From contig NZ_CP058990.1 of the NCBI RefSeq assembly GCF_019021925.1, forward strand, positions 248,001 through 312,000: DNA of 64,000 bases, written 5' to 3'. The position numbers and the translations under genes were made by a program. Below the pieces are notes generated by a model, which worked only from the letters and a program-made list of their open reading frames with translations, was not told the DNA's origin and searched no databases. Positions 49,935-64,000 of this stretch are shown piece by piece; position 1 is the first letter of the stretch, and each line of letters begins with the position of its first letter. The stretch is from Cellulophaga sp. HaHaR_3_176. GTDB taxonomy: Bacteria; Bacteroidota; Bacteroidia; Flavobacteriales; Flavobacteriaceae.

Positions 49935-50546
49935 ATGAAAATTATAGCAATTGGTAAAAATTACGTTAATGACGTAAGTGAAAAGCCATCAGAAAAGGTA
50001 ACTCCAGTAATTTTTACAAAAGCAGATTCTTCGCTTTTAGAAAATAACAATGATTTGGTAATGCCATCTTTTTCTGATGATCTTTGGTATGAGGCAGAAT
50101 TAGCATTTAGAATTGGTAAAACGTGTAAAAATGCAACAGTAGCTAATGCATTAGATTTTGTTGATGCAGTAACATTATCAAACGATATTACAGCTAAAGA
50201 CGTAATGGCTGCAAGTAGAGAAAATAAAGGACCTTGGGCGTTAGGTAAAGGTTTTGATGGCTCAACACCGATAGCTACTTTTTTTCCAATAGCAGATTTT
50301 TCAGATGTACAGAATATTAATTTTTCGTTTGAAGTAAATGGAGAAGAGAAACAAAAAGGAAATAGTTCTTTGATGATTACATCTCTTACCGATTTTATTG
50401 TTTACGTTTCAATGTTTATGACATTAAACCCTGGCGATATTCTTTTATCAGGTACACCTGCGCATGGTGTTGGTAAAATAAATAAAGGGGATGTTATGGT
50501 TGGTTATTTAGAAGGTAAAAAGGTTTTAGAAACTAAAGCCGTTTAG
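49935..50546 (+). CDS. Fumarylacetoacetate hydrolase family protein
   Basis: A 203-residue single-domain FAH-fold protein. Metal ligands are in DLWYEAELAFRIGKTC (Glu pair) and TLSNDITAKDVMAASRENKG (Asp). The GKGFDGSTPI and GDILLSGTPAHGVGKI segments are typical of the FAHD1/YcgM group, which acts as acylpyruvate hydrolase or oxaloacetate decarboxylase. The precise substrate is unknown. It is probably read with valS (19-base gap), as is often seen in Flavobacteriia, and is closed by a strong terminator. Confidence 0.88.
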   Translation: MKIIAIGKNYVNDVSEKPSEKVTPVIFTKADSSLLENNNDLVMPSFSDDLWYEAELAFRIGKTCKNATVANALDFVDAVTLSNDITAKDVMAASRENKGPWALGKGFDGSTPIATFFPIADFSDVQNINFSFEVNGEEKQKGNSSLMITSLTDFIVYVSMFMTLNPGDILLSGTPAHGVGKINKGDVMVGYLEGKKVLETKAV

Positions 50547-50562
50547 TAAATAACAAAACAAT

Positions 50563-50597
50563 AAAAAGCCCTATTCTTTTAAAGAATAGGGCTTTTT
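50563..50597. terminator. Bidirectional terminator after the FAH-family gene
   Basis: A 17-bp stem AAAAAGCCCTATTCTTT / AAAGAATAGGGCTTTTT with T tracts on both strands, between convergent genes. Confidence 0.9.
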
Positions 50598-50634
50598 GTT
50601 ATTATACAAGTAGCTTATTTATATTAAATGAAGA

Positions 50635-51474
50635 TTATCTACCTCCGTACGACTTTAAATCAAGTAAACACTCAGGGTCTAAATCAGGTACTTGACCATT
50701 TTTAGCAGTAAGCATTTTTGCCATTGCAGAACCAAATTGTAATTCAGCAAGCATTAAGCAACCTTCTTGATTACAATGTTGATTTCCAATTTCATTTCCG
50801 TCTTCATCTGTAGTAATGCCTTCATGTGGGTTAACCATTTCATTAGCTATATGTACTAATCCAAAAAGGTGACCAAATTCATGTAATAATGTTGCAGTCT
50901 CTACGGTTGCATCATTAATAAAAACACTTTTACCGGCTAAATCTCTAATGGTAGATTCAAACATTACCATAGATGTGTTTCTGTAAACAGCACCTAGTGT
51001 AACCAAATCTTCTTCAGGTTCATCTTCAGCAGAAGGTGAGTCCGAAAAATAAATATAAACAGCAATTGTTTTTCCGATGTTATATGCGGTTCTGTTTTCT
51101 AATTCTAAATCAGCAATTTCTTGAAGTGTTAAGCTCTCTTTATCAGGAGAAGGCACTTCTAAATATTCAATTTCTATATTCTCTTTAAAAGTACGTTCTG
51201 TTAAATACTCAACTAGATCATCTACAGCTTGTGTGGTAGGTTTAAAGCCAGAAGGATATGCAATTTGTAAAAGTAACGTGTCAAAATCAGTGTTCGATAA
51301 TAAATCAGAGGCAGAAGTGCCTGTATCTTTCAGGTTTGTATTTTTATCAATACTTGTTGGTGATTGATTTGTATTAGTATTTTCTGTATCAGTATCTGTT
51401 GATGTACTTTGTTTTGAACAATTAAAAACTAATAAAAGGGATAAAAACAGGAATACAATATAACTCTTTTTCAT
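50635..51474 (-). CDS. Lipoprotein metalloprotease-like protein (HExxHxxGxxH)
   Basis: A 279-residue lipoprotein. The ATG at 51474 starts MKKSYIVFLFLSLLLVFNCS with the lipobox Cys at about residue 19; an in-frame ATG 18 bases upstream only lengthens the basic part. A Thr/Asn/Ser-rich linker follows (residues 20-55). The zinc motif LLHEFGHLFGLVHIANE is the full metzincin HExxHxxGxxH, and NEMVNPHEG and GNQHCNQEGCLMLAE follow, the latter holding a possible Met-turn (CLML). It probably acts at the outer membrane or cell surface. Its substrate is unknown. Confidence 0.85.
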   Translation of the reverse strand: MKKSYIVFLFLSLLLVFNCSKQSTSTDTDTENTNTNQSPTSIDKNTNLKDTGTSASDLLSNTDFDTLLLQIAYPSGFKPTTQAVDDLVEYLTERTFKENIEIEYLEVPSPDKESLTLQEIADLELENRTAYNIGKTIAVYIYFSDSPSAEDEPEEDLVTLGAVYRNTSMVMFESTIRDLAGKSVFINDATVETATLLHEFGHLFGLVHIANEMVNPHEGITTDEDGNEIGNQHCNQEGCLMLAELQFGSAMAKMLTAKNGQVPDLDPECLLDLKSYGGR

Positions 51475-51533
51475 GGCATCATCATTTAACATTAAGTCTT
51501 TTAGGTATTTACGGTAACGTGCCTAAAAGGGTT

Positions 51534-52250
51534 CTATTGCAAATTAAGAGTAAGTTTCGCTAAATAATCATAATGTTCTCCTTCTTTTAACATTTCACAA
51601 TTAAAATTATTTGCAATTGCGGCTCTTTGTAATGTATTGTAATCTAAATAAAGCCAATCAAACTCATCTCCTTTTTCATCTTTATATTGCATGGTAAAAG
51701 TTACTTCTCCATAGTACGTATTCTGGTCCGAAATCCAATAGCCACCATCTTCGTCTTCTTCATACATATAAATAATATCACTAGAATCTAATATAATTTG
51801 CCCATTTGGTTTTAGGATTGTTTTTAAATGGTTGAAAAATTTATTGATATACTCTAACTTTCCAACAATACCGATACCGTTCATTAATAATAGCAAAGTA
51901 TCAAACTTTTCATCTTTATAGTTATAAATATCAGAACAGATAGCTTTTTTTAGACCTCGCTCTTTACAAACTTCTATAGCACCTTCAGAGTAGTCTAGTG
52001 CAATAACATCAAAACCTTTGTTTTGCAGATAAAGACTATGGCTACCTGCGCCACAACCAATATCTAACACATTACCTTTGCAGATTTGCAATGCCTTTTG
52101 CTCAAGTAAGGGCATTTCTTTAAAATTACGGAATAAATAGTTGAGGGGAATAAAGTCTTCCTCATCTAACGATGAAAAAGTTTTTATATCTGTAGTGCTT
52201 TTTTTGTTATGAAAGTCTAAAACTGCTTTCCCAAGAATATCAGTTGCCAT
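51534..52250 (-). CDS. Class I SAM-dependent methyltransferase
   Basis: A 238-residue cytoplasmic methyltransferase. Motif I is NVLDIGCGAGSHSLYLQNKG, followed by VIALDYSEGAIEVCKERGLK (acidic loop) and DTLLLLMNGIGIVGKLEYIN. The C-terminal half has many Tyr and acidic residues (IYMYEEDEDGGYWISDQNTY). The acceptor is unknown. The short spacing to the upstream divergent DUF2059 gene means they share a 64-base promoter region. The lipoprotein metalloprotease gene follows 59 bases later. Confidence 0.85.
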   Translation of the reverse strand: MATDILGKAVLDFHNKKSTTDIKTFSSLDEEDFIPLNYLFRNFKEMPLLEQKALQICKGNVLDIGCGAGSHSLYLQNKGFDVIALDYSEGAIEVCKERGLKKAICSDIYNYKDEKFDTLLLLMNGIGIVGKLEYINKFFNHLKTILKPNGQIILDSSDIIYMYEEDEDGGYWISDQNTYYGEVTFTMQYKDEKGDEFDWLYLDYNTLQRAAIANNFNCEMLKEGEHYDYLAKLTLNLQ

Positions 52251-52314
52251 TTAATTCGTAATTTGCAGCAAAAATCAGATAATAATATAACTAACAAAAA
52301 TAAATTTTACACAG

Positions 52315-52830
52315 ATGATGTCTATTAATAAAATAGTTGCAATTTTTTTCATGGTAACTATAACTAGTTGTGCACAAGAAAAAACGTATAACGAAGATGT
52401 AATTAGTTACTTGAACTCAAACGGAACATCATCACAATATGAGTTTGCTTACGATGAATTATTGAAAATGTTAGAAGATAAATTTCCGAAAACAAAAGAG
52501 AATTCTAAAAGTTGGGAATTTTTAGATAATAATAAAGAAAAATATGTAGCAGAAATGACAAGTTCACTTGTGCCGGTTTATCAAAAAAACTTCACAGAAG
52601 AAGAACTAAAAAAAATGGCTGATTTTTACAGAAGTCCTACTGGTAAGCAATTAACAGCTGATCGATCTAAAATGACAGAAGATCAAAAAAATAAATTAAA
52701 TGATTTTTATAAATCAGAAATTGGAAAGAAAATTATTGATAAACAACCTGTTTTATCAAAAGATATAGCTGTAGTTTCAGAAAATTGGAGTAGAGATTTG
52801 TATGAAACAGCGCTTAGCTTATTAAAGTAA
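52315..52830 (+). CDS. DUF2059 domain exported protein
   Basis: A 171-residue protein whose signal sequence (MMSINKIVAIFFMVTITSCA) ends in a lipobox-like TSCA, so it is probably a lipoprotein. The DUF2059 hallmark is ELKKMADFYRSPTGKQLTAD, repeated in a weaker form (KLNDFYKSEIGKKIIDKQP). Helical family proteins of this type occur in the periplasm of many Gram-negatives without a known role. The stop codon overlaps the start of the YkgJ-type gene by one base (TAATG), so the two are translationally coupled. Confidence 0.85.
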   Translation: MMSINKIVAIFFMVTITSCAQEKTYNEDVISYLNSNGTSSQYEFAYDELLKMLEDKFPKTKENSKSWEFLDNNKEKYVAEMTSSLVPVYQKNFTEEELKKMADFYRSPTGKQLTADRSKMTEDQKNKLNDFYKSEIGKKIIDKQPVLSKDIAVVSENWSRDLYETALSLLK

Positions 52831-53324
52831 TGGAAGAATTTTTAAAACAATTACCAAAACTAGCTAAAGACAAACAAAACGAGAATAAGAAGTTTTTTGC
52901 GAAGCTAAAAAAAAAGCCACCTAAAAACTTAGATTATACGATGCAAGAACTGCATGAAGATGAGTTTGAAAGAACAGATTGTTTAACTTGTGCAAACTGC
53001 TGTAAAACTACGGGGCCACTTTTTACAAATTCAGATGTAGAGCGTATTGCTAAATCATTCAGGCAAAAACCGCAACAGTTTATTGAACAATATTTACGAA
53101 TAGATGAAGAAAACGATTATGTGTTGCAACAAGTACCTTGTACTTTTTTAGACGCAGATAATTATTGTTCTATTTATGATGTGCGACCAAAAGCTTGCCG
53201 AGAGTTCCCACATACAGACCGTAAAAAGTTTCAACAAATAAGCAATCTAACTATAAAAAATGTAGCTATTTGCCCTGCAGCTTTTAATATTGTTGAAGAG
53301 ATGAAAAAGAGAATAAAAGTATAA
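52830..53324 (+). CDS. YkgJ family cysteine-cluster protein
   Basis: A 164-residue cytoplasmic protein. Cysteines occur in DCLTCANCCKTTGPLFTNSD (Cys51, 54, 57, 58), then VPCTFLDADNYCSIYDVRPK and KACREFPH, and a final Cys in VAICPAAF. This is the Fe-S or zinc-binding CxxCxxCC family (UPF0153/YkgJ). The N-terminal 45 residues are lysine-rich helices. Its function is not established. It starts on the last base of the DUF2059 gene. Confidence 0.87.
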   Translation: MEEFLKQLPKLAKDKQNENKKFFAKLKKKPPKNLDYTMQELHEDEFERTDCLTCANCCKTTGPLFTNSDVERIAKSFRQKPQQFIEQYLRIDEENDYVLQQVPCTFLDADNYCSIYDVRPKACREFPHTDRKKFQQISNLTIKNVAICPAAFNIVEEMKKRIKV

Positions 53325-53365
53325 TAGAAAATCGTATTTATTTTTAAATAACTCAGTCTTTGAAA

Positions 53366-54289
53366 TTACCGCCAATTAATTTTCATGAAGTTTTTCTTTT
53401 TAATAAAATTTTTAGGTATTTTTTCTAAAATTTCGACTCTTAAGGCTTCTATTAAATTATCTTTTGAAAACGAATGATGTACAACGATACTGACCTCTCT
53501 AATTGGTTTAGGATCGCTAAAGTTGATACAGCTACCACTATCTCTTTTGTTAATCGCCATTTCAGGTACCAGTGTAAAACCACCATAATTGTCTACCATT
53601 TTTTTTAAAGCTTCAATAGATCCACTTTGAAATTTAATGCTTTTATTGTTGTTTGAATTATTACAAATATTTAAAACTTGGTTTCTAAAGCAATGTCCGT
53701 TTTCTAAAAGCCAAACATCATTTAACGATTCAACATCTTGTGTCGATATAGTTTTCTTATTATCGAGTTCTTCATTTTTTTGACCATAAAAAACAAATGG
53801 CTCGTTGTAAAGTTTAACCTCTCTGATAAAAGGCTCATTTAATGGTGTTACTAAAATGCCAATATCTATTTCTTTTTTCTGCAATGCCGAAATAATAGAT
53901 TCAGATTGCATTTCTTCAATTTTTAAAATAGAGTTAGGGTATTTTTCAGAAAAAGAACCTGAAATTAAAGGAATAAGATAAGGGGATATGGTTGGTATTA
54001 TTCCCATTCTAAATTCACCTTCTAAATTATTAAGCTCAGTACTAACCATATTTTTCAATTCGCCTACTTCACGTAAAATAACTTTTGCTTTTCTAACAAA
54101 CATTTCACCTAAATCAGTCGGTCGAAAAGGAGATTTACTCTTGTCAAAAATTGTAAAGCCTATTTCGTCTTCTAGTTTTTTAACTTGAATAGTAATAGTT
54201 GGTTGCGTTACAAAACACTTTTCGGCAGCGGTTACAAAATGCCTATACGTGTCTAAGGCAATTACATATTCGAGTTGTTGTAATGTCAT
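53366..54289 (-). CDS. oxyR: OxyR-type LysR family hydrogen peroxide sensor
   Basis: A 307-residue LysR-type regulator. The winged helix occupies residues 1-60 (LEYVIALDTYRHFVTAAEKC, TQPTITIQVKKLEDEIG). The sensor domain carries Cys200 and Cys209 in ENGHCFRNQVLNICNN, the same spacing and context as the redox disulfide pair of E. coli OxyR. It is divergent from the exported catalase, the classic target. The 90-base region between the genes holds promoters for both and a 7-bp inverted repeat that may be its binding site. Confidence 0.9.
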   Translation of the reverse strand: MTLQQLEYVIALDTYRHFVTAAEKCFVTQPTITIQVKKLEDEIGFTIFDKSKSPFRPTDLGEMFVRKAKVILREVGELKNMVSTELNNLEGEFRMGIIPTISPYLIPLISGSFSEKYPNSILKIEEMQSESIISALQKKEIDIGILVTPLNEPFIREVKLYNEPFVFYGQKNEELDNKKTISTQDVESLNDVWLLENGHCFRNQVLNICNNSNNNKSIKFQSGSIEALKKMVDNYGGFTLVPEMAINKRDSGSCINFSDPKPIREVSIVVHHSFSKDNLIEALRVEILEKIPKNFIKKKNFMKINWR

Positions 54290-54309
54290 TCTTATTGATT
54301 TTGTTAATA

Positions 54310-54317
54310 CAAATATA
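54310..54317 (-). promoter_or_regulatory. -7 promoter element of oxyR
   Basis: CAAATATA on the plus strand reads TATATTTG on the minus strand, an exact TAnnTTTG, 21 bases before the oxyR start codon. A good -33 box is not seen. Confidence 0.55.
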
Positions 54318-54322
54318 AAAAC

Positions 54323-54360
54323 TATTAATTTGATTAATAAGGTGGTGCTGTAGATATTTG
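54323..54360 (+). promoter_or_regulatory. Catalase promoter with overlapping inverted repeat
   Basis: TTTG (54329-54332), a 20-base spacer and GATATTTG (54353-54360, one mismatch to TAnnTTTG) form a promoter for the catalase gene. The inverted repeat TATTAAT-TTG-ATTAATA (54323-54339) is centred on the TTTG box and lies just upstream of the oxyR -7 element. It is a plausible OxyR operator acting on both genes. Confidence 0.5.
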
Positions 54361-54379
54361 CTCCATCATAAAAATTAAG

Positions 54380-55912
54380 ATGAAGATGAAATTATTATTT
54401 ACGGCAATAGCCTTATCGATTGGGCTTGCAACTTTTGCACAAAACAAAGGCTCAGAAACATTAATGACTACGAATAATGGGGCGCCAGTTGGAGATAACC
54501 AGAATTCTAAAACAGTTGGCGAATATGGTCCAGTTTTATTAGAAGATATCCATTTAGTAGAAAAATTAGCAGCTTTTGATAGAGAGCGTATTCCAGAGCG
54601 TGTAGTACACCCAAGAGGCGCAGGAGCTTCTGGTTATTTTGAAGCAACTAAAGATATGTCTGAATATACAAGAGCGGTATTATTTGCTGAGGTAGGTAAA
54701 AAAACGGATTTAGCGGCTCGTTTTTCTACAGTGATACATGGCAAAGGATCTCCAGAAACAGCAAGAGACCCAAGAGGTTTTGCAGTTAAATTTTATACAG
54801 AGCAAGGTAATTATGATATTGTTGGTAACAACTTACCTATATTTTTTATTAGAGATGCTATAAAATTCCCAGATATGGTTCACTCTTTAAAACCATCACC
54901 AGAAACAAACAAGCAAGACCCTAATCGTTTTTTCGATTTCTTTTCTAATGTACCAGAGGCAACACATATGCTTACAAGGTTGTATACCGATTTAGGAATA
55001 CCTAAAGGTTACCAATTTATGAATGGGAGTAGTGTGCATGGTTACAAATGGATTAATAAAGCAGGTAAGGTAACCTATGTGAAATATTCATGGGTATCTA
55101 AGCAAGGAGAGCATAATTTAACTGTAGAAGAAGCTGCAGTACAACAAGGAAAAGATTGGCAACATGCAACGGTAAGCTTAAGAAAAGATATTGCTGATAA
55201 GAATTACCCACAGTGGGATTTGTATGTGCAAATGATTAAGCCTGAAGATATTCATTCTTTCGATTTTTGGCCTTTAGATGCTACTAAAGATTGGCCAGCA
55301 GATAAAATTGAAAAAATTAAAATTGGTACAATGACGTTGAACCAAAACCCTGTAAATTATTTTGAGCAAGTAGAAAGTATAGCTTTCTCTCCAGGAGCTT
55401 TAATACCAGGTGTTGAACCATCAGAAGATAAATTATTACAAGGGCGTTTATTCTCTTATTTTGATACTCAAAGACATAGGCTAGGACCTAATTTTCAACA
55501 ATTAACAATAAACAAACCATTAGAAGATCCGAAGAATTACAATTCAGATAGCTGGAGTAGTTATGGTAATAAAAAGTTTGAAAATCCTGATGTAAATTAC
55601 CAACCAAGTAGCAGATCGACTTTAGCTGAAGATATGCAGTACAAACAATCTGAAACTACACTTACTGATGTAACTATTACTCAAAAGAAAATTACAAAAA
55701 CAAATGATTTTGCTCAGCCTGGCGATTTTTACAGATCACTTACAAAGCAGCAAAAAGATAATTTAATTAAAAATTTAACTGGAGATTTAGGTCAGGTAAC
55801 TGATAAAAATATTCAAATGAAAATGATTACATATTTCTATAAATCAGACAGAGACTACGGAATGCGTGTAGCTGAAGCTTTAGGCTTTTCTGCTAAAGAT
55901 TTTAGAAATTAA
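54380..55912 (+). CDS. Exported monofunctional heme catalase
   Basis: A 510-residue catalase converting hydrogen peroxide to water and oxygen. The signal peptide MKMKLLFTAIALSIGLATFA implies a periplasmic location. The distal heme residues are His77 (ERVVHPRGAGASGYFE) and Asn150 (DIVGNNLPIFFIRD), and the proximal ligand is Tyr360 in GRLFSYFDTQRHRLGPNF. Size fits the small-subunit clade. OxyR lies divergently upstream and an exported ankyrin protein follows. A similar catalase-ankyrin pair (KatB-AnkB) is known from Pseudomonas, where the ankyrin protein supports catalase activity. Confidence 0.94.
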   Translation: MKMKLLFTAIALSIGLATFAQNKGSETLMTTNNGAPVGDNQNSKTVGEYGPVLLEDIHLVEKLAAFDRERIPERVVHPRGAGASGYFEATKDMSEYTRAVLFAEVGKKTDLAARFSTVIHGKGSPETARDPRGFAVKFYTEQGNYDIVGNNLPIFFIRDAIKFPDMVHSLKPSPETNKQDPNRFFDFFSNVPEATHMLTRLYTDLGIPKGYQFMNGSSVHGYKWINKAGKVTYVKYSWVSKQGEHNLTVEEAAVQQGKDWQHATVSLRKDIADKNYPQWDLYVQMIKPEDIHSFDFWPLDATKDWPADKIEKIKIGTMTLNQNPVNYFEQVESIAFSPGALIPGVEPSEDKLLQGRLFSYFDTQRHRLGPNFQQLTINKPLEDPKNYNSDSWSSYGNKKFENPDVNYQPSSRSTLAEDMQYKQSETTLTDVTITQKKITKTNDFAQPGDFYRSLTKQQKDNLIKNLTGDLGQVTDKNIQMKMITYFYKSDRDYGMRVAEALGFSAKDFRN

Positions 55913-55933
55913 AAACTATTCATCCATGAAGAA

Positions 55934-55966
55934 GGGGGAGGCATTTTATGCTTCTTCCTTTTTTTT
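55934..55966 (+). terminator. Terminator between catalase and ankyrin genes
   Basis: An 11-bp stem with G-U wobbles (GGGGGAGGCAT / ATGCTTCTTCC, TTT loop) followed by eight T. It may be partially read through to supply the ankyrin gene, which lacks an evident promoter of its own. Confidence 0.7.
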
Positions 55967-55977
55967 AAATTCATATT

Positions 55978-56493
55978 ATGAAATATATAATAATAGTAGT
56001 CTTTTTTACTTATAGCATTGTAGCACAATCGCAATCAGTTTTTGAAGCATCAAGAGAAGGGAGTATTGATACGTTAGAAGCATTATACCGTATAAATAAT
56101 GACACTTTAAATGCCGTAGATAGTAAAGGTTTTACACCTTTAATTTTGTCAACATATAACAGCCAAGCTGCGGCAGTAACATTTTTATTAAATAAAAATG
56201 TTGATATAAATGCTAAAGATGTATCTGGTAATACAGCACTAATGGGGGTTTGTTTTAAAGGTAATTTCGAAATTGCCAAAATGCTTATTGATAACGGAGC
56301 TAATGTAAATCAACAAAATTATAACAATGCAACAGCATTAATATATGCGAGTACATTTGGTCATTTAGATATTGTTACATATTTACTTCAAAAAGGGGCA
56401 GATAAAGAGATTATAGATAGCAGAGGTAATACGGCTTTAAAACATGCTCAAATGCAAGGAAACGACGAGATAGAAGCACTCTTAAAGTTTTAG
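55978..56493 (+). CDS. Exported ankyrin repeat protein
   Basis: A 171-residue protein with a signal peptide (MKYIIIVVFFTYSIVAQSQS) and about four ankyrin repeats: SKGFTPLILSTYNSQAAAVT, VSGNTALMGVCFKGNFEIAK, YNNATALIYASTFGHLDIVT and SRGNTALKHAQMQGNDEIEA. It follows the exported catalase by 65 bases. In Pseudomonas aeruginosa AnkB sits in the periplasm and is required for full KatB activity, so a similar partnership is inferred here. A terminator stands between the genes, so expression levels may differ. Confidence 0.88.
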   Translation: MKYIIIVVFFTYSIVAQSQSVFEASREGSIDTLEALYRINNDTLNAVDSKGFTPLILSTYNSQAAAVTFLLNKNVDINAKDVSGNTALMGVCFKGNFEIAKMLIDNGANVNQQNYNNATALIYASTFGHLDIVTYLLQKGADKEIIDSRGNTALKHAQMQGNDEIEALLKF

Positions 56494-56604
56494 AATAACA
56501 AGTTGTAATTGTGAAAGTTAATATGTTCAGGCTTAACTGTATTTTTACAATACGGTCAGGTTACTTTTTAGCTAATTTAAGCCTGAATATGTTATTAATT
56601 TTGT

Positions 56605-57013
56605 CTAGCTGTTGCAATTCTCTATTAAATAACCATTTAAGTCTCCTTAAAAATTTTCGCCACCAAACTCTCCTTACTCTTTTTCAATTAATTCTTTTTC
56701 GGGCAATACCATTTCAAATATGGTATCACCAATAAGCTTATCAAGCTCTTAAGAACTTAGTGTTTTATTCTTTTCAATAAAATCACAAACCTCTTAAGAA
56801 ATATTTTTAACAGATTGATTACTTGCAGTTATATTCAGAATTTGAAACCTTCTGCATTATTCTCGAAAATATAGGGCAGTTTTTGGCAGTTTCTATTGTT
56901 AAATGTTCACTAATCAATTAAGCAATTTCTAAATCTGATTTATTAAGGTAAGTCGTGCTATGTTCGTTATTTAACTCAAGTAGAATTTTATTGTTATTCT
57001 TAATAAACTTCAT
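56605..57013 (-). pseudogene. Probable decayed gene of unknown family
   Basis: From ATG 57013 the minus strand reads MKFIKNNNKILLELNNEHST, then SDLEIA, a TAA, and LISEHLTIETAKNCPIFSRI. After one frameshift near 56825 it continues as SNQSVKNIS, TAA, EVCDFIEKNKTLSS, TAA, ELDKLIGDTIFEMVLPEKEL and GEFGGENF. The peptide has the composition of real flavobacterial protein, but at least five in-frame stops and a frameshift rule out expression. I do not recognise the family. A caveat is that AT-rich DNA offers such readings by chance more often than GC-rich DNA. Confidence 0.4.
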
Positions 57014-57104
57014 TCAATTTCAAACACATTTTATTAGACAGGAGTTCAATATTCGAGTTTTGAAAGTACCCTGTATCAGTAAATACGATAAATAGAATAA
57101 AGAT

Positions 57105-57295
57105 TCTTAGTAAATTTCCCATGTTTATATTCTATAAATTCAGATACAATTAATGCTTATAGTTACGAATATGAAAACAATAGCTACGAAAACAAATTAC
57201 TTTTTGATGATTACTACCTCCCACTTACATTAGATAAGAAAAAGGATGTTTTTACAACCTATAGGAGTTGTAAAATGTTAATATATAAATATTAG
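57105..57295 (+). pseudogene. Open 3' remnant of a plus-strand gene
   Basis: A 63-codon open frame without a start codon, closed by a stop in frame upstream and ending at TAG 57293-57295. It reads NFPCLYSINSDTINAYSYEY, then LLFDDYYLPLTLDKKKDVF. Tyr- and Asp-rich text of this kind looks like the C-terminal part of a lost protein. It lies 6 bases before the LRR gene, so it might also reflect an alternative upstream frame. Confidence 0.35.
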
Positions 57296-57301
57296 ATAGT
57301 T

Positions 57302-57895
57302 ATGGAACAATTAGATTTAGTTAATGAAGATTACTCTTTTAAAGAATTTGATGACAGTATAGGAATTGTAGATTATATAGGTAAATCTACCGATATTGTA
57401 ATACCAGATTATATAAATGATAAGCCAGTACGTTACATATTTAAAGAAGCTTTTTGTGAAAAAGGTATTAAATCTGTAACGTTACCGAGTTTTCTGGAGC
57501 ATTTAGGTGAAGATGTTTTTTATAAAAATGAAATTAAAGAAGTAATAATACCAGCAAAATTAACGGAAATTGGTGGCGGTGCTTTTGGAAGAAACAAAAT
57601 TGAAAAACTTGTCTTCAAATCTGATATTAAATTTTTACCTATGTTTTGCTTTGTAGGCAATGCACTTACAAGTTTAGAGTTGCCAGAAAGTTTAACTAGC
57701 TTATCTAACGACTGTTTTGCAGAGAATGATTTTGTAGAGCTAACCATTCCGGAGCATTTAACGGATATAACGGGTGATTGTTTTGGAAACAATAAAAAGC
57801 TAAATAAAGTAATACTACCAGAAAAATTTGAAAGTAATAAACATAGTATTTTTCGTGGCTGCGATTTAGAAAATATTACGTTTGAAGTAATTTAA
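57302..57895 (+). CDS. BspA-type leucine-rich repeat protein (LRR_5)
   Basis: A 197-residue protein made of about seven repeats of 23 residues of the BspA/LRR_5 type, such as IKSVTLPSFLEHLGEDVFYK, IKEVIIPAKLTEIGGGAFGR and LTSLELPESLTSLSNDCFAE. It has no signal peptide and no T9SS sorting domain, unlike most surface BspA proteins, so it is probably cytoplasmic or a truncated derivative of a larger surface protein. It lies beyond decayed sequence and ends at a strong terminator. Its function is unknown. Confidence 0.8.
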   Translation: MEQLDLVNEDYSFKEFDDSIGIVDYIGKSTDIVIPDYINDKPVRYIFKEAFCEKGIKSVTLPSFLEHLGEDVFYKNEIKEVIIPAKLTEIGGGAFGRNKIEKLVFKSDIKFLPMFCFVGNALTSLELPESLTSLSNDCFAENDFVELTIPEHLTDITGDCFGNNKKLNKVILPEKFESNKHSIFRGCDLENITFEVI

Positions 57896-57916
57896 CCTTT
57901 GCAGTTTTTAATGCAT

Positions 57917-57950
57917 ATGGCTGTCCTGAAATTTCGGGGCAGCCATTTTT
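57917..57950 (+). terminator. Intrinsic terminator after the LRR gene
   Basis: ATGGCTGTCCTGAAA pairs with TTTCGGGGCAGCCAT (two G-U wobbles), followed by a T tract. Confidence 0.8.
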
Positions 57951-58227
57951 ATATTTTCACATTTCTTCTTAAAAAATGTTTAGAAGACTATCTAAACTTA
58001 TTGTGGAGTGTTTATTGTAAAAAAATGAATAAGCTGAACGGCTAATTTTAAATAGCCAATTGTAGTGGCTACCTGCGGGTTGTGTTTATAATGGGTTTAG
58101 TTTAAATTTATATAGAATAGGCAGGCTTTAGTAGTTGGTAAGCTATCTTTAATAAATAAAAAGAAAAGCAAAAAATGTGTTGTACTTGTATAAAATCATA
58201 TCTTTATTTTGAACTAAATAGGGTAGC
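57951..58227. other. Intergenic region with two mutually exclusive hairpins
   Basis: No coding frame is visible. GGCTA-ATTTTAAA-TAGCC and TAGCCA-ATTGTAG-TGGCTA (about 58040-58071) share the TAGCC segment and cannot form together, an arrangement seen in attenuators. No T tract follows, so a regulatory role is speculative. Confidence 0.3.
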
Positions 58228-58560
58228 ATGAAGCAAAAGTTAATAGTTATAGGAATCATTTTTTTTACAATGTTAGTGTATTCTTGCGGAGAAAAACTAG
58301 CTCTTGATCAACAAGTGATAAAGGATATTTCGGATATTAAAAAAATTAAGAAGTGCAATAATGTTCCTGAAGATGCTGAAGTTACAAATGTGACTTTTGG
58401 AAACTTAAACCCAACACCAGGTACCAATATGTATGTTGTTTTTGTAGAATATGATTATACCTTAAGTGGTAAAATCACACATGTAGAAAATTCATATGTA
58501 TATTTTAAACGTGGAGAATCTTATGATTTTTCAGATGTAGTTGGTGGGTGCGATAATTAA
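58228..58560 (+). CDS. Small lipoprotein of unknown function
   Basis: A 110-residue protein with a lipoprotein signal peptide (IIFFTMLVYSCGEK, Cys at residue 20). The mature part is short and beta-rich (EVTNVTFGNLNPTPGTNMYV, then VFVEYDYTLSGKITHVENSY) with a second Cys pair (KKCNNV and GGCDN) that could form a disulfide. I do not recognise the family. It sits alone among small orphan genes. Confidence 0.75.
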   Translation: MKQKLIVIGIIFFTMLVYSCGEKLALDQQVIKDISDIKKIKKCNNVPEDAEVTNVTFGNLNPTPGTNMYVVFVEYDYTLSGKITHVENSYVYFKRGESYDFSDVVGGCDN

Positions 58561-58619
58561 GCCGGTACCAACGCAACTTATTTTTTCACATACTTTTTCA
58601 AACGGTTTGTAAATTTTTT

Positions 58620-59231
58620 CTATTCTTTAGTAGGAAATTGATGCCCTGTAGATTTCCAATAAGGAATTTGAGATATCAAAAAGGTTGTATTTGAAATTGT
58701 ACCTTTTTCATCTATTCTAATTTTGTTAACAGTGCCTTTGTAATATAATTCTAAGAAAGTACTTTTTAAACCACCAGACCATAGTTGCTCACTTTCAAAT
58801 AGAATTTTATAACTAGACGGTTGTATACCTTCATTACTCAATAACTTTTTGAATTCTGCTAAGCTTAATCGTTTATTTACTCGCTTGCCATTATCGTAAA
58901 CCCATTTAGTAAGGTTTCTTCTTATTCTAATTTCTGATTTAGATATCGTATCAATCTCAACGTTACTCTCTATTTTATATTTCTCTACTATTTCATCCCA
59001 AGCATTATATATTGTTTTACGATTATCTCGTTTTTCCCTAAGTTTAATAGGTAAATTAGAGTATGCTTGATTCCAACCTTTATTGAGGGAATTATATGGT
59101 GTTTGCTTTTTTATAGAATCTAAGTCTTTTAAATAGTTACTTGTCACTAAAAAACTTACTTCAGTTTTTGATGAATTACAAGAAGTAGCAAATAGAATTA
59201 TAAAACAGCTTTTAATAATAAATTTGAACAT
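58620..59231 (-). CDS. Lipoprotein of unknown function
   Basis: A 203-residue protein starting MFKFIIKSCFIILFATSCNS, a lipoprotein signal with Cys18. The mature part is basic with RRNLTKWVYDNGKRVNKRLS and a YYKGTVNKIRIDEKGTISNT beta segment. I recognise no family and no catalytic motif. The gene is 95 bases downstream of a small membrane-protein gene on the same strand and may share its transcript. Confidence 0.72.
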   Translation of the reverse strand: MFKFIIKSCFIILFATSCNSSKTEVSFLVTSNYLKDLDSIKKQTPYNSLNKGWNQAYSNLPIKLREKRDNRKTIYNAWDEIVEKYKIESNVEIDTISKSEIRIRRNLTKWVYDNGKRVNKRLSLAEFKKLLSNEGIQPSSYKILFESEQLWSGGLKSTFLELYYKGTVNKIRIDEKGTISNTTFLISQIPYWKSTGHQFPTKE

Positions 59232-59326
59232 TATCTGATTTTTTTTCAGTTTTGTTTTTCTATTTTACTTAGCCTATTTACAATAACCATTATTTTAATG
59301 GAGCCTCTGTTTTTATAACTAAATCT

Positions 59327-59686
59327 TTATAATTTTTTTCGAATTAATGCATAATAAATTCCGAACATTAATATTAAAATAAATTCAGAGGTAACAAAGG
59401 AAATTAAGAAATTCAAAAAATTTGAGCTACTGTAACTAAGATACATTAGTATTGCTGTAAATAGTCCGAAAGTGCTCCAAAAATAATATTTTAATGATGT
59501 TTTAGAAATTCCGAATGATAATGCTATAGCAAACAATAAAGAGGCTAATAACATCATAAAACCATAACCATCATCATTATTTTCTAAAGCTTCGATACTT
59601 ATATAGCCTATTAATAAGGTGCCTACTATTGCAATAAATATAATAAATGGGTCCATTATATTTGAGTTTTCAGTTTTTTGCGTCAT
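59327..59686 (-). CDS. Small integral membrane protein
   Basis: A 119-residue protein with four hydrophobic segments (DPFIIFIAIVGTLLIGYISI, FMMLLASLLFAIALSFGI, YFWSTFGLFTAILMYLSY and FVTSEFILILMFGIYYALI) and a basic C terminus. I recognise no family. It starts 18 bases after the remains of an SH3-domain gene on the same strand. Confidence 0.65.
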   Translation of the reverse strand: MTQKTENSNIMDPFIIFIAIVGTLLIGYISIEALENNDDGYGFMMLLASLLFAIALSFGISKTSLKYYFWSTFGLFTAILMYLSYSSSNFLNFLISFVTSEFILILMFGIYYALIRKKL

Positions 59687-59704
59687 TTTTTATTTTAATT
59701 GTTA

Positions 59705-59932
59705 CTAATAATTTTTAGATCCTTTATTGTCAAAAGTTATATCTTTTTTTGTTCAGATTTAATTGTTTCTAATTTAGAATTAGAATAAAATTTTTCCAGT
59801 AATTTCAGATTTTAAGTTAGATTCTTTTCTGATATTTAAACCATTTTCAGCTGTTACGTTATAGATTTCTTGACTATAGGTTTTAGTCATAAACAGTAAA
59901 ATAATAATTAAAAAAAAGCTGCTTTTTTTCAT
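59705..59932 (-). pseudogene. Frameshifted exported SH3-domain protein
   Basis: ATG 59932 opens a 50-codon frame: a signal peptide (MKKSSFFLIIILLFMTKTYS) and the start of a bacterial SH3 domain (YNVTAENGLNIRKESNLKSE), stopping at TAA 59780. One base later in frame the reading continues YSNSKLETIKSEQK, and after a second shift in a run of seven A it reads KDITFDNKGSKNY before TAG. Both shifts fall in homopolymers (T4 and A7). Together the pieces form most of an SH3_3-type domain lacking its last strand. It begins 8 bases after the left end of the repeat element at 59940. Confidence 0.7.
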
Positions 59933-59939
59933 AATTATT

Positions 59940-60290
59940 GCTAATGTATACCTATTATTAGTAATGGACTAAATGTAGTAAGCTTTCGGTTATTACTTAG
60001 CCAAATCTTATGTATTGTGTTTTAATTTTTCTCATTTAATACCAAATCAAAAGATTTGGCAATCTTAGAAATTTAGCAGAAACCTTTCGATAGTTCAGAC
60101 TAATTTTCTTGCCTAAGGCTAAATCTATAAGATTTAACGACTTCAAAATGGTACACAACCTACAAAACAAATAATTAAAGTAAGTTTTAAATATTTATTC
60201 ATTATTTAACTTCAGATTTTTCATAATAAAGCACAACATTAAGTGAAAATCATTTGTTTTTTACCGCTGTTATTTGTTGCCAAATGTTTA
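59940..60290 (-). repeat. Cassette-like intergenic element, copy A (composite)
   Basis: Related to the element at 63169-63370. On the minus strand it begins with the stop codon of the M16 peptidase gene (TAAACATTTGGCAACAA) and ends near CATTAGCAAT. It shares with copy B: TTTGGCAACAA/TTTTGTAACAA at the gene end, CGAAAGG (plus CCTTTCG, 60083), a hairpin CCAAATC-AAAA-GATTTGG (60042-60059), CTAAGTAAT (plus ATTACTTAG, 59992) and TTAGCAA at the far end. It is about 150 bp longer than B because it contains a second hairpin (60120-60136) and a 19-codon lipoprotein start. Confidence 0.55.
60143..60202 (-). pseudogene. Tiny lipoprotein signal-peptide remnant
   Basis: ATG 60202 reads MNKYLKLTLIICFVGCVPF and stops at TGA. 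This is a complete lipoprotein signal (lipobox FVGC) with almost nothing after it, enclosed in repeat element A. It is probably the 5' end of a gene lost by deletion. Confidence 0.4.
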
Positions 60291-63119
60291 CTCCTCATTT
60301 AAAAGTATTGGTTTTCCAAAACCTAGGCCTTCTAGTTTTTTCATTTGAGTTTCTGCGTCACCAACTACAAGATAAATCATTTTACTTGCCTTTAAATAGT
60401 TCTCAACTAAGTTTTTTATGTCTTTAACGGTCAATGCTTTTACAATAGCTTCACGTTGTTTTGCGTAATCAGCATCAAAACCAAAATTACTGATGTTATT
60501 AAGCATATTTAATTTTGAACGTAATGTTTCAAAAGCTCTAGCATTACTTTTAATCATAAAACCTTTTGTGACTTCTAGATCATTTTCTGTATAGTTTTTA
60601 CCATAATTATCTAGTATGTCTTTTATTAAACTTGCAGACTCAAAAGTAACATTAGAACGCACGCCACTTTCGATGGTGAAAGCTCCTTTTATTCTAGATC
60701 CTGAAAAATTAGACCTAATACCATAAGTATATCCTTTTCCTTCACGTAATTGTTGTGTTAATTGAGAAGCAAAACCACCACCACCAAGACGGTAATTCAT
60801 AATAGTTGCAGGATAATAATCAATATCTGTAGCTGCTAAAGCCGGATATCCAAAACGTAATATAGATTGCTTAGCGCCTGGTACATCGTAAAAATATACT
60901 TGAGATTTCTTTGGTGATTTTAATTCGGGTAGTTCTGGAAAAGTAATATCCTTTACCGCCCAATTATCATTTATATCAGATAAAGATGCTATTACTTGAG
61001 ATTCAGAAATATCACCAACAATATGAAACTTTGTAATAGAAGGTGACATATTTGTGTTGTAGTACTGTTTTAAATCATCAATTGAAATTGAGTTTACAGA
61101 TGCTTCTGTACCACTACCATTGTTTGATAATATGTGATCTTCGCCATAAATAAGTTTTGCATAAGCATTAGTAGCAATACTGTTTGGATTCGCTTTTTGT
61201 TGCTCAATTTGACTTAAGATACTCTGCTTTGTTAAATCAAATTCTTTTTCGTCCCAACGTGGTTCTAACAAAATTTCTTTTACTAATACCATTGTTTTTG
61301 CGTAGTTCTTTGCTAATGAATTTCCTGAAATAATAACAGCTTCGTCGGTTGCATATGCATTTATTGAGGCACCAAGGCTTTCAATGGCATTCTCTAACTG
61401 TTCTGGTGTTTTGTTTTTTGTGCCTTTAGTTAATAAATCAGCTAGAAGATTTGAGACTCCAACTTTATTCGCATTTTCTAACAATAAGCCACCTTTTATT
61501 TGCATTTCAAACTGCACTAATGGCACTTCATTGTTTTCTATACCATATACAACTATGCCAGATGATAATTCATCTTTCCATATGCTAGGTGCTTTTACAT
61601 CAGGACTCTCTCCATAAGGAGGTTCAATACTTCTATCGAAACTAGAAGGTGTTTTTTCGTAAGTTGCTGCAATACTTGCATCAAATTGTTCTTCTGCACC
61701 TTCAATAATTTTTTCTTCAACAACATCTGCTAATGTTGAGTTTTGTAATGCTAGATCCACTTGATTTTTAGGAACAAAACTTGTCGCTACCAAATGTTTG
61801 CCTTTAATATATGTATTATAAACACGCATCACATCTTCTGGTGTAACGGCAAGAATATTTTTAACATCTTGGTTAATAAAAGCTGGATCACCTGCAAATA
61901 TTTCATATTGTGCTAATTGTGCACCTTTTCCTAAAACACTAGATAAACTATTATAAAAATCTGTTTCTTGACCAGCTTTAATTCGATCTAGATCTTTTAT
62001 TGATATACCATTCGCTTCAAAATCAGAAAGTGCTTTAAAAATTGCATCTTCAACTTTATCTAAATCAGTATCAGAAAAAGCTGTGGTTTGGAGCATAAAT
62101 TGGCCAGCAATTTCAGAATTATATTGAAACATATCGACACCATCAGTAAGTTGTTCATCTTCTACAAGTGTTTTGTAAAGTGGTGCTTTTTTACCTTGAG
62201 ATAAATACGTTGCTAAAACTTCTAAAGCATATGAGTCTGGATGGTACTGATATACAGAAGGCCATGTTAAATTTAATTGAGGTAAACGTGCAAACTTATC
62301 TTCGTAATATAATTTTTTAGTTGCGCTTAAAACAGCTGGTTGTTTTTCCATTTTAGGAATATCTTCACCACGTTTTATATCATTAAAATACTTTTCAACC
62401 CATTGCTTAGCTTGTGCAGTATCAAAGTCTCCTGCAATGGTTAAAGTAACGTTATTTGGTACATACCATCTATTAAAAAAGTCTTTTACGTCTTGTAATG
62501 TTGCATTTTGTAAATCTTCTAAAGAGCCAATAACTGTCCAGCTATAAGGATGACCTTTAGGATATAAATTATCTCCTACAACTTTAAAAGTATGACCATA
62601 TGGTCGATTGTCTACGCTTTGCCTTTTTTCATTTTTTACGACCTGCTTTTCTTTGGATAGTACTTGATCAGTAACCGTATTAATAAAGTAACCCAATTTG
62701 TCTGCTTCTGCCCAAATCATTTTTTCTAAGGCGTCTTTCGGAACCGTTTGTAAATAATTAGTTCTGTCTCTATTTGTAGAGCCATTAGCACCTGAGCCCC
62801 CGATACGAGCACTCATTTTATCGAGCCCACCTTTACCTAAGTTTTCAGATTCTAAGAATAACAAGTGTTCAAATAAATGTGCAAATCCAGTGCGACCTTC
62901 TATTTCACGTGCAGAACCAACATGGCTGGTTAGTGACACAGCTACTACAGGATCTGACCTGTCAATATGTAAGATGACTTGCAAGCCGTTGTCTAAGGTG
63001 AATTTTTCAAAATCTACTTTAAACTCTTTTGTTTCAGCAATTTTGTCTTGATTATCTTTACAAGATGTCAATGTAATAAACATCAATAAAGTGAATGTTA
63101 ATAGCTTAAATAGACGCAT
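60288..63119 (-). CDS. M16 family zinc metallopeptidase lipoprotein (insulinase/pitrilysin-like)
   Basis: A 943-residue protein with two M16 halves. The signal peptide (MRLFKLLTFTLLMFITLTSC) ends in a lipobox with Cys20. The inverted zinc motif HxxEH is HLFEH (residues 81-85) in RTGFAHLFEHLLFLESENLG. The second half (from about residue 500; VQFEMQIKGGLLLENANKVG) lacks the motif, as usual for the inactive partner half. Such proteins cleave peptides in the periplasm or at the outer membrane. It lies between two copies of the intergenic element, and its stop codon is the first codon of copy A. Confidence 0.92.
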   Translation of the reverse strand: MRLFKLLTFTLLMFITLTSCKDNQDKIAETKEFKVDFEKFTLDNGLQVILHIDRSDPVVAVSLTSHVGSAREIEGRTGFAHLFEHLLFLESENLGKGGLDKMSARIGGSGANGSTNRDRTNYLQTVPKDALEKMIWAEADKLGYFINTVTDQVLSKEKQVVKNEKRQSVDNRPYGHTFKVVGDNLYPKGHPYSWTVIGSLEDLQNATLQDVKDFFNRWYVPNNVTLTIAGDFDTAQAKQWVEKYFNDIKRGEDIPKMEKQPAVLSATKKLYYEDKFARLPQLNLTWPSVYQYHPDSYALEVLATYLSQGKKAPLYKTLVEDEQLTDGVDMFQYNSEIAGQFMLQTTAFSDTDLDKVEDAIFKALSDFEANGISIKDLDRIKAGQETDFYNSLSSVLGKGAQLAQYEIFAGDPAFINQDVKNILAVTPEDVMRVYNTYIKGKHLVATSFVPKNQVDLALQNSTLADVVEEKIIEGAEEQFDASIAATYEKTPSSFDRSIEPPYGESPDVKAPSIWKDELSSGIVVYGIENNEVPLVQFEMQIKGGLLLENANKVGVSNLLADLLTKGTKNKTPEQLENAIESLGASINAYATDEAVIISGNSLAKNYAKTMVLVKEILLEPRWDEKEFDLTKQSILSQIEQQKANPNSIATNAYAKLIYGEDHILSNNGSGTEASVNSISIDDLKQYYNTNMSPSITKFHIVGDISESQVIASLSDINDNWAVKDITFPELPELKSPKKSQVYFYDVPGAKQSILRFGYPALAATDIDYYPATIMNYRLGGGGFASQLTQQLREGKGYTYGIRSNFSGSRIKGAFTIESGVRSNVTFESASLIKDILDNYGKNYTENDLEVTKGFMIKSNARAFETLRSKLNMLNNISNFGFDADYAKQREAIVKALTVKDIKNLVENYLKASKMIYLVVGDAETQMKKLEGLGFGKPILLNEE

Positions 63120-63168
63120 AAAGGTGTTTTTTACTTCTGTATTGAATTACTTATAGTCATAAATATTT

Positions 63169-63370
63169 GCTAACGTCTCGTATAAGAAACGTAGGGCAGG
63201 TGATAAGCAATTTCGTTTCGATTTATTACTTAGCTAAATGTAGATATTTTGCTTTTATTTTTTTTACTTAAATGCCTAAATTTTATATTTAGCGGACTTT
63301 GTTAATATTCACAGACCTTTCGGTTTAGCACAAAAGCCCTATGTTTTTTATTCATTGTTACAAAACGTTA
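63169..63370 (-). repeat. Cassette-like intergenic element, copy B
   Basis: A 202-bp element between a small lipoprotein gene and the M16 gene. On the minus strand it opens with the stop codon of the lipoprotein frame (TAACGTTTTGTAACAA) and ends with GACGTTAGC. The TAACG/CGTTA ends are inverted, as are GCCCTA (63336) and TAGGGC (63192). It contains CCTTTCG (63316), a hairpin CTAAAT-TTTAT-ATTTAG (63276-63292) and ATTACTTAG (63225), with spacings within one base of those in copy A. Its overall form (TAAC...GTTA ends, internal pairing) recalls integron attC sites, but it is longer and no integrase is in the window. Confidence 0.6.
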
Positions 63371-63788
63371 TTTCTCACAATTAAGCTCAAATGGAAAATT
63401 TTTCCAATTACTATCTATATTTTTCCTTATTCTTAATTCTAATTTATCGTTTTGATAATTACTACTCTCTAATACACAAATTATATCATCTGTTTGACAA
63501 CCTATATATTTTGAACCAAAATTACAATCATCATCTGTACTTTTAAAATCCCTAGAGGTTTCTCTTGTTTCTTTATAAAAGAAATAATTAACTTTTAAGT
63601 TATTATTGATGTTGGCACAAATATTAAGTTCAGAATAAGAGTATTTAATTATTTTAGAATAAAGAGAATCAATATTTTTTTTATTAGTTTTTTTCATTTT
63701 TTAGATGAAAGAAAATAGTATCTTCTGAACAAGAAGATACGAAAAAACATAATAATATTATCTTGATAAAGTTTATTCTAATTCTCAT
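63368..63788 (-). pseudogene. Frameshifted small lipoprotein gene
   Basis: ATG 63788 opens a lipoprotein signal frame (MRIRINFIKIILLCFFVSSC followed by SEDTIFFHLKNEKN) that stops at 63684. A second frame, shifted by one base and overlapping it (ATG 63697), continues for 109 residues: NIDSLYSKIIKYSYSELNIC, DDDCNFGSKYIGCQTDD, and ends at NFPFELNCEK. The junction lies in runs of seven and eight A. The simplest reading is one lipoprotein of about 140 residues broken by a one-base indel. The downstream frame alone would lack any export signal despite several cysteines. The stop codon belongs to repeat element B. Confidence 0.6.
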
Positions 63789-63844
63789 AATACAAATTCA
63801 AATTTTTTTCAAATTCAAACTCTGTTACAAAAGGTTTATAATTT

Positions 63845-63965
63845 CTAGTATGCTGTAAAACAAACCATTAAGTTTATTGTTGATCCTTCTTGAAATTTAT
63901 AAGTACTATCTTCTATAATAGATTGATAGTCCAGAATATTCTGTTTGTAATCAGTAAAAATAACC
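63845..63965 (-). pseudogene. Possible 3' fragment of a further minus-strand gene
   Basis: Reading the minus strand towards TAG 63845-63847 gives IFTDYKQNILDYQSIIEDST, then YKFQEGSTINLMVCFTAY. A stop lies in frame just upstream, so this is either a remnant or the end of a gene frameshifted near the window edge. The family is unknown. Confidence 0.3.
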
Positions 63966-64000
63966 AATTACTTAAGTAATTGAAAAATGAAACCGCCTTA

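Follow-up and report, generated by a model that had tools for sequence, protein, structure and literature searches.

In this study we examined a 64,000-nucleotide (nt) stretch of Cellulophaga sp. HaHaR_3_176 (contig NZ_CP058990.1, positions 248,001 to 312,000; hereafter the window), in which two intergenic elements, A and B, flank an M16 peptidase gene. We report that these elements are, with a probability of about 0.92, recombination sites of the attC type that belong to an integron-like system on the chromosomes of Flavobacteriaceae and other Bacteroidota. As judged from sequence comparison, the system is best called an integron of a different make, with the architecture and comparative behaviour of an integron and a separate, XerA-like integrase lineage. 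An earlier reading of the sequence alone had suggested either a sedentary cassette system of Flavobacteriaceae or a widespread repeat with some other role, and the cassette system is supported by further copies of the element, by their orientation, by a recombinase at the heads of arrays and by the exact duplication of a gene-plus-element unit.

In integrons, a cassette begins directly behind the crossover, G|TT, and its first bases are paired with the start of the attC site of the same cassette. The right box of site n should therefore match the left box of site n+1. Boxes were compared by permutation over box positions 3-9 (counts of at least 8/9 use positions 1-9). For 47 same-strand pairs of sites less than 4 kb apart in the source genome, weak model rows being kept, 240 of 329 positions matched, compared with a permuted mean of 122 (standard deviation (sd) 9, maximum 159 in 20000 permutations); the mean match was 5.1/7 with the next site and 3.0/7 with the same site, and 26 of the 47 pairs reached 8/9 or 9/9. 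Eighteen pairs from named genomes, including Aequorivita sinensis, Winogradskyella ursingii and Algibacter onchidii, gave 97 matches out of 126 (permuted 45, sd 6.4; 0 of 20000 permutations as high), with 12 pairs at 8/9 or 9/9 and all three Rufibacter pairs among the six misses. A further sample took in ten genomes of the same genus, of which nine yielded 119 pairs (the best 150 of 201 rows were aligned, and some pairs skip a site); here 674 of 833 positions matched (permuted 317, sd 17, maximum 381 of 5000) and 70 pairs were perfect at 9/9. Pairing between the two ends of a single site was rejected as a candidate, as it gave 342 matches (permuted 317, sd 17) against 674 of 833 with the next site. 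The sites thus behave as integron attC sites, in that the bases following G|TT of site n have their complement at the start of site n+1 rather than in site n itself. These comparisons show cassette boundaries at G|TT, with the first bases of a cassette pairing with the start of its own site.

The sequence-only reading would have been refuted by a lack of further copies or by their random orientation, and neither was found. A covariance model, R1, built from 12 copies in the source genome, gave 74 rows on that 3.80-Mb genome. After removal of shadows (opposite-strand rows overlapping stronger palindromic matches), 59 sites remained at E<=0.01, the 12 model copies included. They fall in about 13 clusters of a single orientation each; below 1.66 Mb every site is minus-strand, and above 1.838 Mb every site is plus-strand, with no exception among the 59. 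R1 sites were present in 67 of 100 relatives, the source genome included, and in 57 of the 61 from the same family; scoring stopped at about 22 sites per genome, and some genomes are represented by a single weak match. Among the matches listed for eight genomes, 42 of 53 arrays read away from the origin, judged by eye with dnaA as the origin; G049 has no row among those matches. All did so in G010 (8/8), G005 (7/7) and G031 (3/3), most in G013 (8/9), G014 (2/3) and the source genome, G000 (10/13), but only 2/5 in each of G002 and G015. In the source genome the orientation flips at 1.66-1.84 Mb, and dnaA lies at 1.99 Mb. Reading away from the origin is thus a bias, not a rule. A superintegron-like array of ~70 kb was also seen (G014:C1:1-72152), with sites on one strand, bar a palindromic shadow, and its own integrase and attI at the head.

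The copies sit between mostly unrelated genes. In 121 units with matching boxes, the longest open reading frame (ORF) was on the array strand in 110 and on the opposite strand in 6, with none in 5, and covered a median 94% of the unit. For the 110 same-strand ORFs, the median distance is 24 nt from G| to the start and 14 nt from the stop to the AAC core that follows, so that the stop codon lies just outside the core. Cassette proteins were rarely related, with 14 related pairs, six of which represent one insertion-sequence protein. Two copies of a 700-bp gene-plus-site unit in G013 are 100% identical over 707 bp, from 4 bp ahead of the left crossover to 3 bp past the right one, which bears out the idea of whole gene-plus-element units. 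Five other duplicate comparisons (94-97% identity) have their right end 5-8 nt past the right crossover. On comparative evidence, cassettes are gained, lost or duplicated as units at the crossover, sharply so in one of six duplicates and in 7/7 comparisons of integrase platforms, described below.

The source genome encodes four proteins matching PF00589, namely a XerC-like protein (284 bits in NCBIfam, below its cut-off of 335), XerD (330, cut-off 329.6), a 375-amino acid (aa) enzyme and a 406-aa protein for which an NCBIfam search at 1e-20 found no match. The sequence-only reading had proposed to look for a nearby tyrosine recombinase, IntI or other; the 375-aa enzyme heads arrays, but it is not an IntI. 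Relatives at E<=1e-70 occurred in 28 of 100 genomes. At 1e-40, 13 of 14 re-searched genomes had a relative, some of them divergent, and none was found in G036. The integrase stop is commonly followed by a palindrome, about 5-7 nt and then G|TT, an attI-like arrangement. The palindrome arms are 7-11 bp in 12 of 15 measured loci (not in L097, L100 and L109), and no attI-like site was recognised by eye at L067, L070, L071, L077 and L078. The attI box agreed with the first detected site at at least 8/9 in 13 of 20 loci, compared with 7 of 378 controls, and in the source genome attI and the first cassette agreed at 9/9. Applied to 41 named or plasmid loci, R1 gave 27 matches in 10 loci, all downstream of the integrase and co-directional with it. 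Same-genus platforms were 75-97% identical (blastn) through integrase and attI, and homology ended 6 nt before to 25 nt after G| in 7/7 same-genus comparisons, with computed G positions; therefore, the first cassettes differ and the platform is inherited. Platforms 96.6% identical carried different first cassettes. Taken with the G013 duplicate, the alignments show a cassette duplicated as an exact unit, and cassettes that differ at attI on otherwise similar platforms. Two further observations concern related integrases. Palindromes resembling attI likewise accompany a second group (L072, L073, L074, L075 and L080), whose members are ~305 aa and have no long N-terminal part, and in L080 a downstream site matches attI at 8/9. 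In gut Bacteroidales and in Cytophagales, attI-like inverted repeats with G|TT were recognised by eye behind related integrases (L104 Mediterranea, L108 Parabacteroides distasonis, L093, L098 and L139); R1 finds no site in these five loci, other attC types not having been sought.

Several comparisons set the 375-aa enzyme apart from IntI. In NCBIfam it scored 227 bits with the XerA-type model NF040815 (cut-off 220) and 202 with the integron integrase model TIGR02249 (cut-off 265). NF040815 was reached by four of six integrases tested, and since the XerD of the same genome also reaches it (221), this model is not specific. The TIGR02249 cut-off was reached by no protein in 100 relatives, the source genome included; the matches there split near profile positions 180 and 238 and were scored by piece, and whole-protein scores (189-209) were likewise below the cut-off. 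The best PDB match was 4a8e, which we take to be Pyrococcus XerA, aligned throughout at 154 bits, while the alignment with 2a3v (IntI4) splits in two, with chain residues 173 to 242 facing only ~27 residues of the enzyme. By these alignments the integrase lacks the ~42-aa IntI segment (I2). The KDR-type and HxLRH motifs were 58-59 (one 63) apart in the XerA-like group where the patterns were found, which in many they were not, and 100 apart in the five IntI in which they were recognised. A quick tree (100 rows, 33 of 97 inner branches open) placed the 21 IntI rows in one clade (SH-aLRT 100) on a long branch and all 55 rows of the XerA-like group outside it. The long integrase group carries an extra N-terminal part of ~107 aa. 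The right box reads G|TTRNNNNNMATT over 9-12 nt, and the canonical R' box GTTRRRY is not kept, being found in 13 of 185 sites where column composition predicts 16. Judged in this way, the system fails three features of canonical IntI integrons, namely the segment, the clade and the box.

Some results weigh against an integron. The recombinase has no counterpart of the segment that integron integrases need; 21 of the 47 box pairs in the source genome do not reach 8/9, owing to decay, insertion sequences or sites that are missed or false; the attI/first-cassette match failed in 7 of 20 loci; and five of six duplicates lack a sharp left border, running 82-451 nt into the preceding site or unit. 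In addition, R1 matched nothing in 31 of the 41 named loci that carry a related recombinase, and 14 phage records hold relatives of the enzyme, all under 60% identity. Not every relative of the 375-aa enzyme is therefore an integron enzyme, and some are carried by phages; no phage record matched the attC-like site. The preference for one strand is also weak. Of 55 sites, 42 fold better as the bottom strand and 12 as the top strand, but on the top strand A.C pairs are fewer than G.T pairs (85 vs 110). Per site, A.C exceeded G.T on top in 15 sites and was the rarer in 27. Counts of non-Watson-Crick pairs do not favour the bottom strand and speak partly against it.

Four other explanations were considered. 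An undetected true IntI elsewhere in the genome, moving cassettes of a canonical integron, would share the same architecture of integrase, attI and attC array, and in a phylum-wide sample of 395 genomes, 105 do hold proteins over the TIGR02249 cut-off. Of the 107 phylum genomes with a match at 1e-55, none belongs to the same family or order and one to the same class. A true IntI acting in trans was rejected because 0 of 100 relatives passed the cut-off, and the four PF00589 proteins of the source genome are those named above; we regard it as highly improbable. Still harder to sustain is a dispersed mobile repeat (a miniature inverted-repeat transposable element or a repetitive extragenic palindromic-like sequence) or an RNA terminator or 3' untranslated region element lying after genes. 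The elements are indeed palindromic, intergenic, near stop codons and multi-copy, but a self-inserting repeat would match its own two ends, whereas the right box matches the next site, and in the cleanest duplicate G|TT marks both limits of the identical stretch. Window positions 50000-64000 gave no Rfam match at gathering score. The box test and the unit duplication together rule this explanation out, in our view almost beyond doubt. That the sites are a dead relic of past activity, with no present movement, seems quite unlikely too. The array in the window is decayed, and the integrase at the array head is in pieces in G010 (222 + 168 aa) and G015 (162 aa); yet none of the 31 integrase rows that relatives gave at E<=1e-70 contains an internal stop, a duplicate cassette is 100% identical, and near-identical platforms hold different first cassettes.

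Ordinary double-stranded Xer-type recombination, in which both strands are exchanged and the palindrome only provides paired binding sites, deserves more attention, although we consider it the less probable mode. It would suit an XerA-like enzyme without the IntI segment and, as stated in the available part of PMC7790495, Xer proteins lack the I2 domain for single-stranded substrates. Site length, moreover, varies. The median is 183-184 nt in the source and in other genomes, but the source genome has its 5th percentile at 82 nt and its 25th at 173 nt, so that a quarter of its sites are under 173 nt, and several sites in other families are about 100-170 nt. Sites of other genomes appear tight at 183-185 nt, but this set is the best 150 of 201 rows and hence biased. 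A tight site length was therefore dropped as support for a folded site, which leaves the odds of that reading unaffected because it is based on covariation and boxes. Over 55 sites, 85.9% of cells were paired compared with 31-43% in slid controls, and covariation was 0.324 compared with 0.027-0.051, in an alignment that was fitted to structure and so favours structure. Both sides change in 35 of 48 pairs. Under the same alignment, compensatory changes reach the inner stems (helices 3 and 4), far from the crossover, in 17 of 23 pairs, and box position 10 holds a constant A/C mismatch in 28 of 32 well-matched pairs of the source genome; both weigh against double-stranded exchange. Recombination of attC as a folded single strand is therefore a likely mode. 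An XerA-like recombinase would cut at G|TT, cassettes, each mostly one ORF with an imperfect-palindrome site of ~184 nt, would pass through a circular form, and attC would be used in folded, single-stranded form, perhaps as the bottom strand.

One of these cassettes is that of the M16 peptidase in the window, whose array is partly decayed and distant from the integrase (Table 1). Elements A and B flank it in the same orientation and share the blocks CCTTTCG and ATTACTTAG and a central hairpin, all as the sequence-only reading had described. Element B coincides exactly with a single site, an imperfect palindrome and one of the 12 model copies, which scores 218.8 bits with R1. As a blastn query it returned 45 rows in the source genome, the next five copies being 86-89% identical over 195-210 bp, and is therefore no chance match. 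Its outer boxes are TTGTAAC and CGTTAGC; the inverted TAACG/CGTTA ends previously likened to attC do exist but are partly coincidental. The box that opens the M16 cassette matches the start box of the next site at 7/9 and that of its own site at 6/9. The view that each element supplies the stop codon of the preceding gene was roughly right, except that the TAA is not first in the site core, ending 12 nt (M16 gene) or 11 nt (109-aa ORF) ahead of the C of AAC; the M16 ORF starts 55 nt after G|. Element A, previously treated as a single copy, proved to be composite, made of the short site of the M16 unit (R1 15.2 bits, E 0.16, a weak match; box against B 7/9) and the decayed core of another site (54.1 bits, covering model positions 56-183 only). 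A Pfam scan of the 109-aa ORF gave no match. Overall, the original observation is partly confirmed and mostly right.

Table 1. Coordinates of the integron-like features (window positions, unless stated otherwise).
Feature	Position	Strand	Remarks
XerA-like integrase (tyrosine recombinase)	1863972-1865096 (source genome)	+	375 aa; directly upstream of array, co-oriented
Gene of the unit closed by B (ORF)	63368..63697	-	109 aa; stop ahead of core of B
Left (R''-like) box of site B	63358..63369	-	
attC-like site B	63174..63357	-	184 nt; from C of left AAC core (63357) to crossover G (63174)
Cassette 5' box TTAGCAAATATT	63162..63173	-	opens M16 cassette, after G|
M16 peptidase ORF, gene of its cassette	60288..63119	-	943 aa; Pfam PF05193/PF00675; stop ahead of next AAC core
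Left box of short site	60277..60288	-	reverse complement TTGCCAAATGTT
Short attC-like site closing M16 cassette	60237..60276	-	first part of element A; weak match
Core of second, decayed attC-like site	59972..60091	-	second part of element A; R1
Decayed right box ACA|TTAGCAATAATT	59933..59944	-	read off sequence; 50-aa ORF comes next
Integrase fragment 'xerD'	4043-4708 (coding sequence, L161)		221 aa; p34AB, Acinetobacter baumannii

Cassette contents were scanned for 101 of 114 located cassette ORFs, leaving out insertion-sequence, repeat and opposite-strand ORFs, and the Pfam and PADLOC names given here are family labels of predicted proteins. The 101 ORFs match 76 Pfam families; among the 25 listed, 17 occur once and 8 twice, with labels such as GNAT acetyltransferases, Imm70, Imm26, SMI1/KNR4, Beta-lactamase family, ankyrin and many DUFs. 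Cassette proteins also matched 36 PADLOC models, those listed including HamB, UzuA and PD-Lambda-2_B. Arrays additionally host an IS3-like element (HTH_Tnp_1 and rve ORFs, ~1.31 kb, end TGACCCGTCCTG), always in the cassette direction and exactly 13 nt past the crossover G| in 14 of 15 rows, two of which are one place; in the 15th row the G is an A. It was found at G000 L031-L046, G010 L166/L167, G014 L168/L171 and G005 L176, and is by its position a predicted attC/attI-targeting insertion sequence.

The integrase has relatives on plasmids as well. The 'xerD' upstream of tet(X3) on Acinetobacter plasmids is a 57-58% identical fragment of it; on p34AB we examined positions 4640-4960 and 6020-6260. 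As in the arrays described here, a piece of integrase and an attI-like palindrome stand directly ahead of tet(X3), and 18 positions separate the gene from the G of its G|TT. Unlike here, the integrase is only a fragment and R1 finds no attC after tet(X3), where the box, at 6/9 by eye, is close to unrelated boxes. The 201-bp segment upstream of tet(X3) occurs in 50 plasmid records. The part of PMC7494873 available gives the order xerD-tet(X3)-res and does not use the words integron, integrase or cassette. As a lead, we suggest that tet(X3) is likely a first-position cassette of an XerA-like integron; an integron piece with tet(X3) first would explain the 'xerD' ahead of this gene. Persicobacter sp. 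JZB09 (plasmids CP012862 and CP012866) has an integrase of 43% identity and, on a different plasmid of the strain, an attC-like site of 81% identity, and the system may also reside on plasmids.

Our literature searches covered open-access PMC, and among the titles and openings of abstracts that they listed none sets out an XerA-like integron system. Known integrons are recognised by IntI, and searches that need IntI or a canonical attC would thus miss a large pool of Bacteroidota cassettes, including proteins that match immunity and phage-defence families. The extra segment of IntI is presented, in the part of PMC7790495 available, as the innovation that enables single-stranded attC recombination. 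An integron architecture without I2 makes the origin of integrons testable, and integron-style gene capture may have evolved twice or be older than thought. We lean towards the view that a second recombinase lineage evolved such capture, or that capture predates IntI, with an XerA-like integrase lacking I2, folded single-stranded attC recombining with attI, and arrays that in Flavobacteriaceae and other Bacteroidota reach the size of superintegrons.

Sedentary chromosomal IntI integrons, of which the Vibrio superintegron is an example, resemble the present system in having an integrase gene, attI, long arrays of one orientation and mostly single-ORF cassettes, in the crossover G|TT, in a cassette 5' end that can pair with the beginning of the cassette's own attC, and in their diverse orphan and immunity or defence genes. 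They differ in the IntI segment and clade and in the GTTRRRY box, and here the median site is 183-184 nt and arrays are scattered over ~13 places. As in the chromosomal integrons of Treponema, the integrase is transcribed toward attI, in the cassette direction, although Treponema uses a gene called intI, according to the available part of PMC3607928. Integrons are not new to the phylum. Reviews list Bacteroidetes among integron-bearing phyla (PMC2426708, PMC8618304), and a complete integron has been reported in the phylum (PMC9024848), Salinibacter ruber M1 being an example of a reported host. In the parts of these reports available, they rest on IntI or canonical attC and name no Flavobacteriaceae. 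XerC and XerD act on 28-bp dif-like sites. The present sites, in contrast to XerC/XerD-dif modules, are far longer palindromes, and XerC-like and XerD proteins are encoded elsewhere in the source genome. The enzyme itself is closest to XerA/Xer recombinases in its best structural match, but differs from them in the N-terminal extra part of the long group and in its link to attI and cassette arrays.

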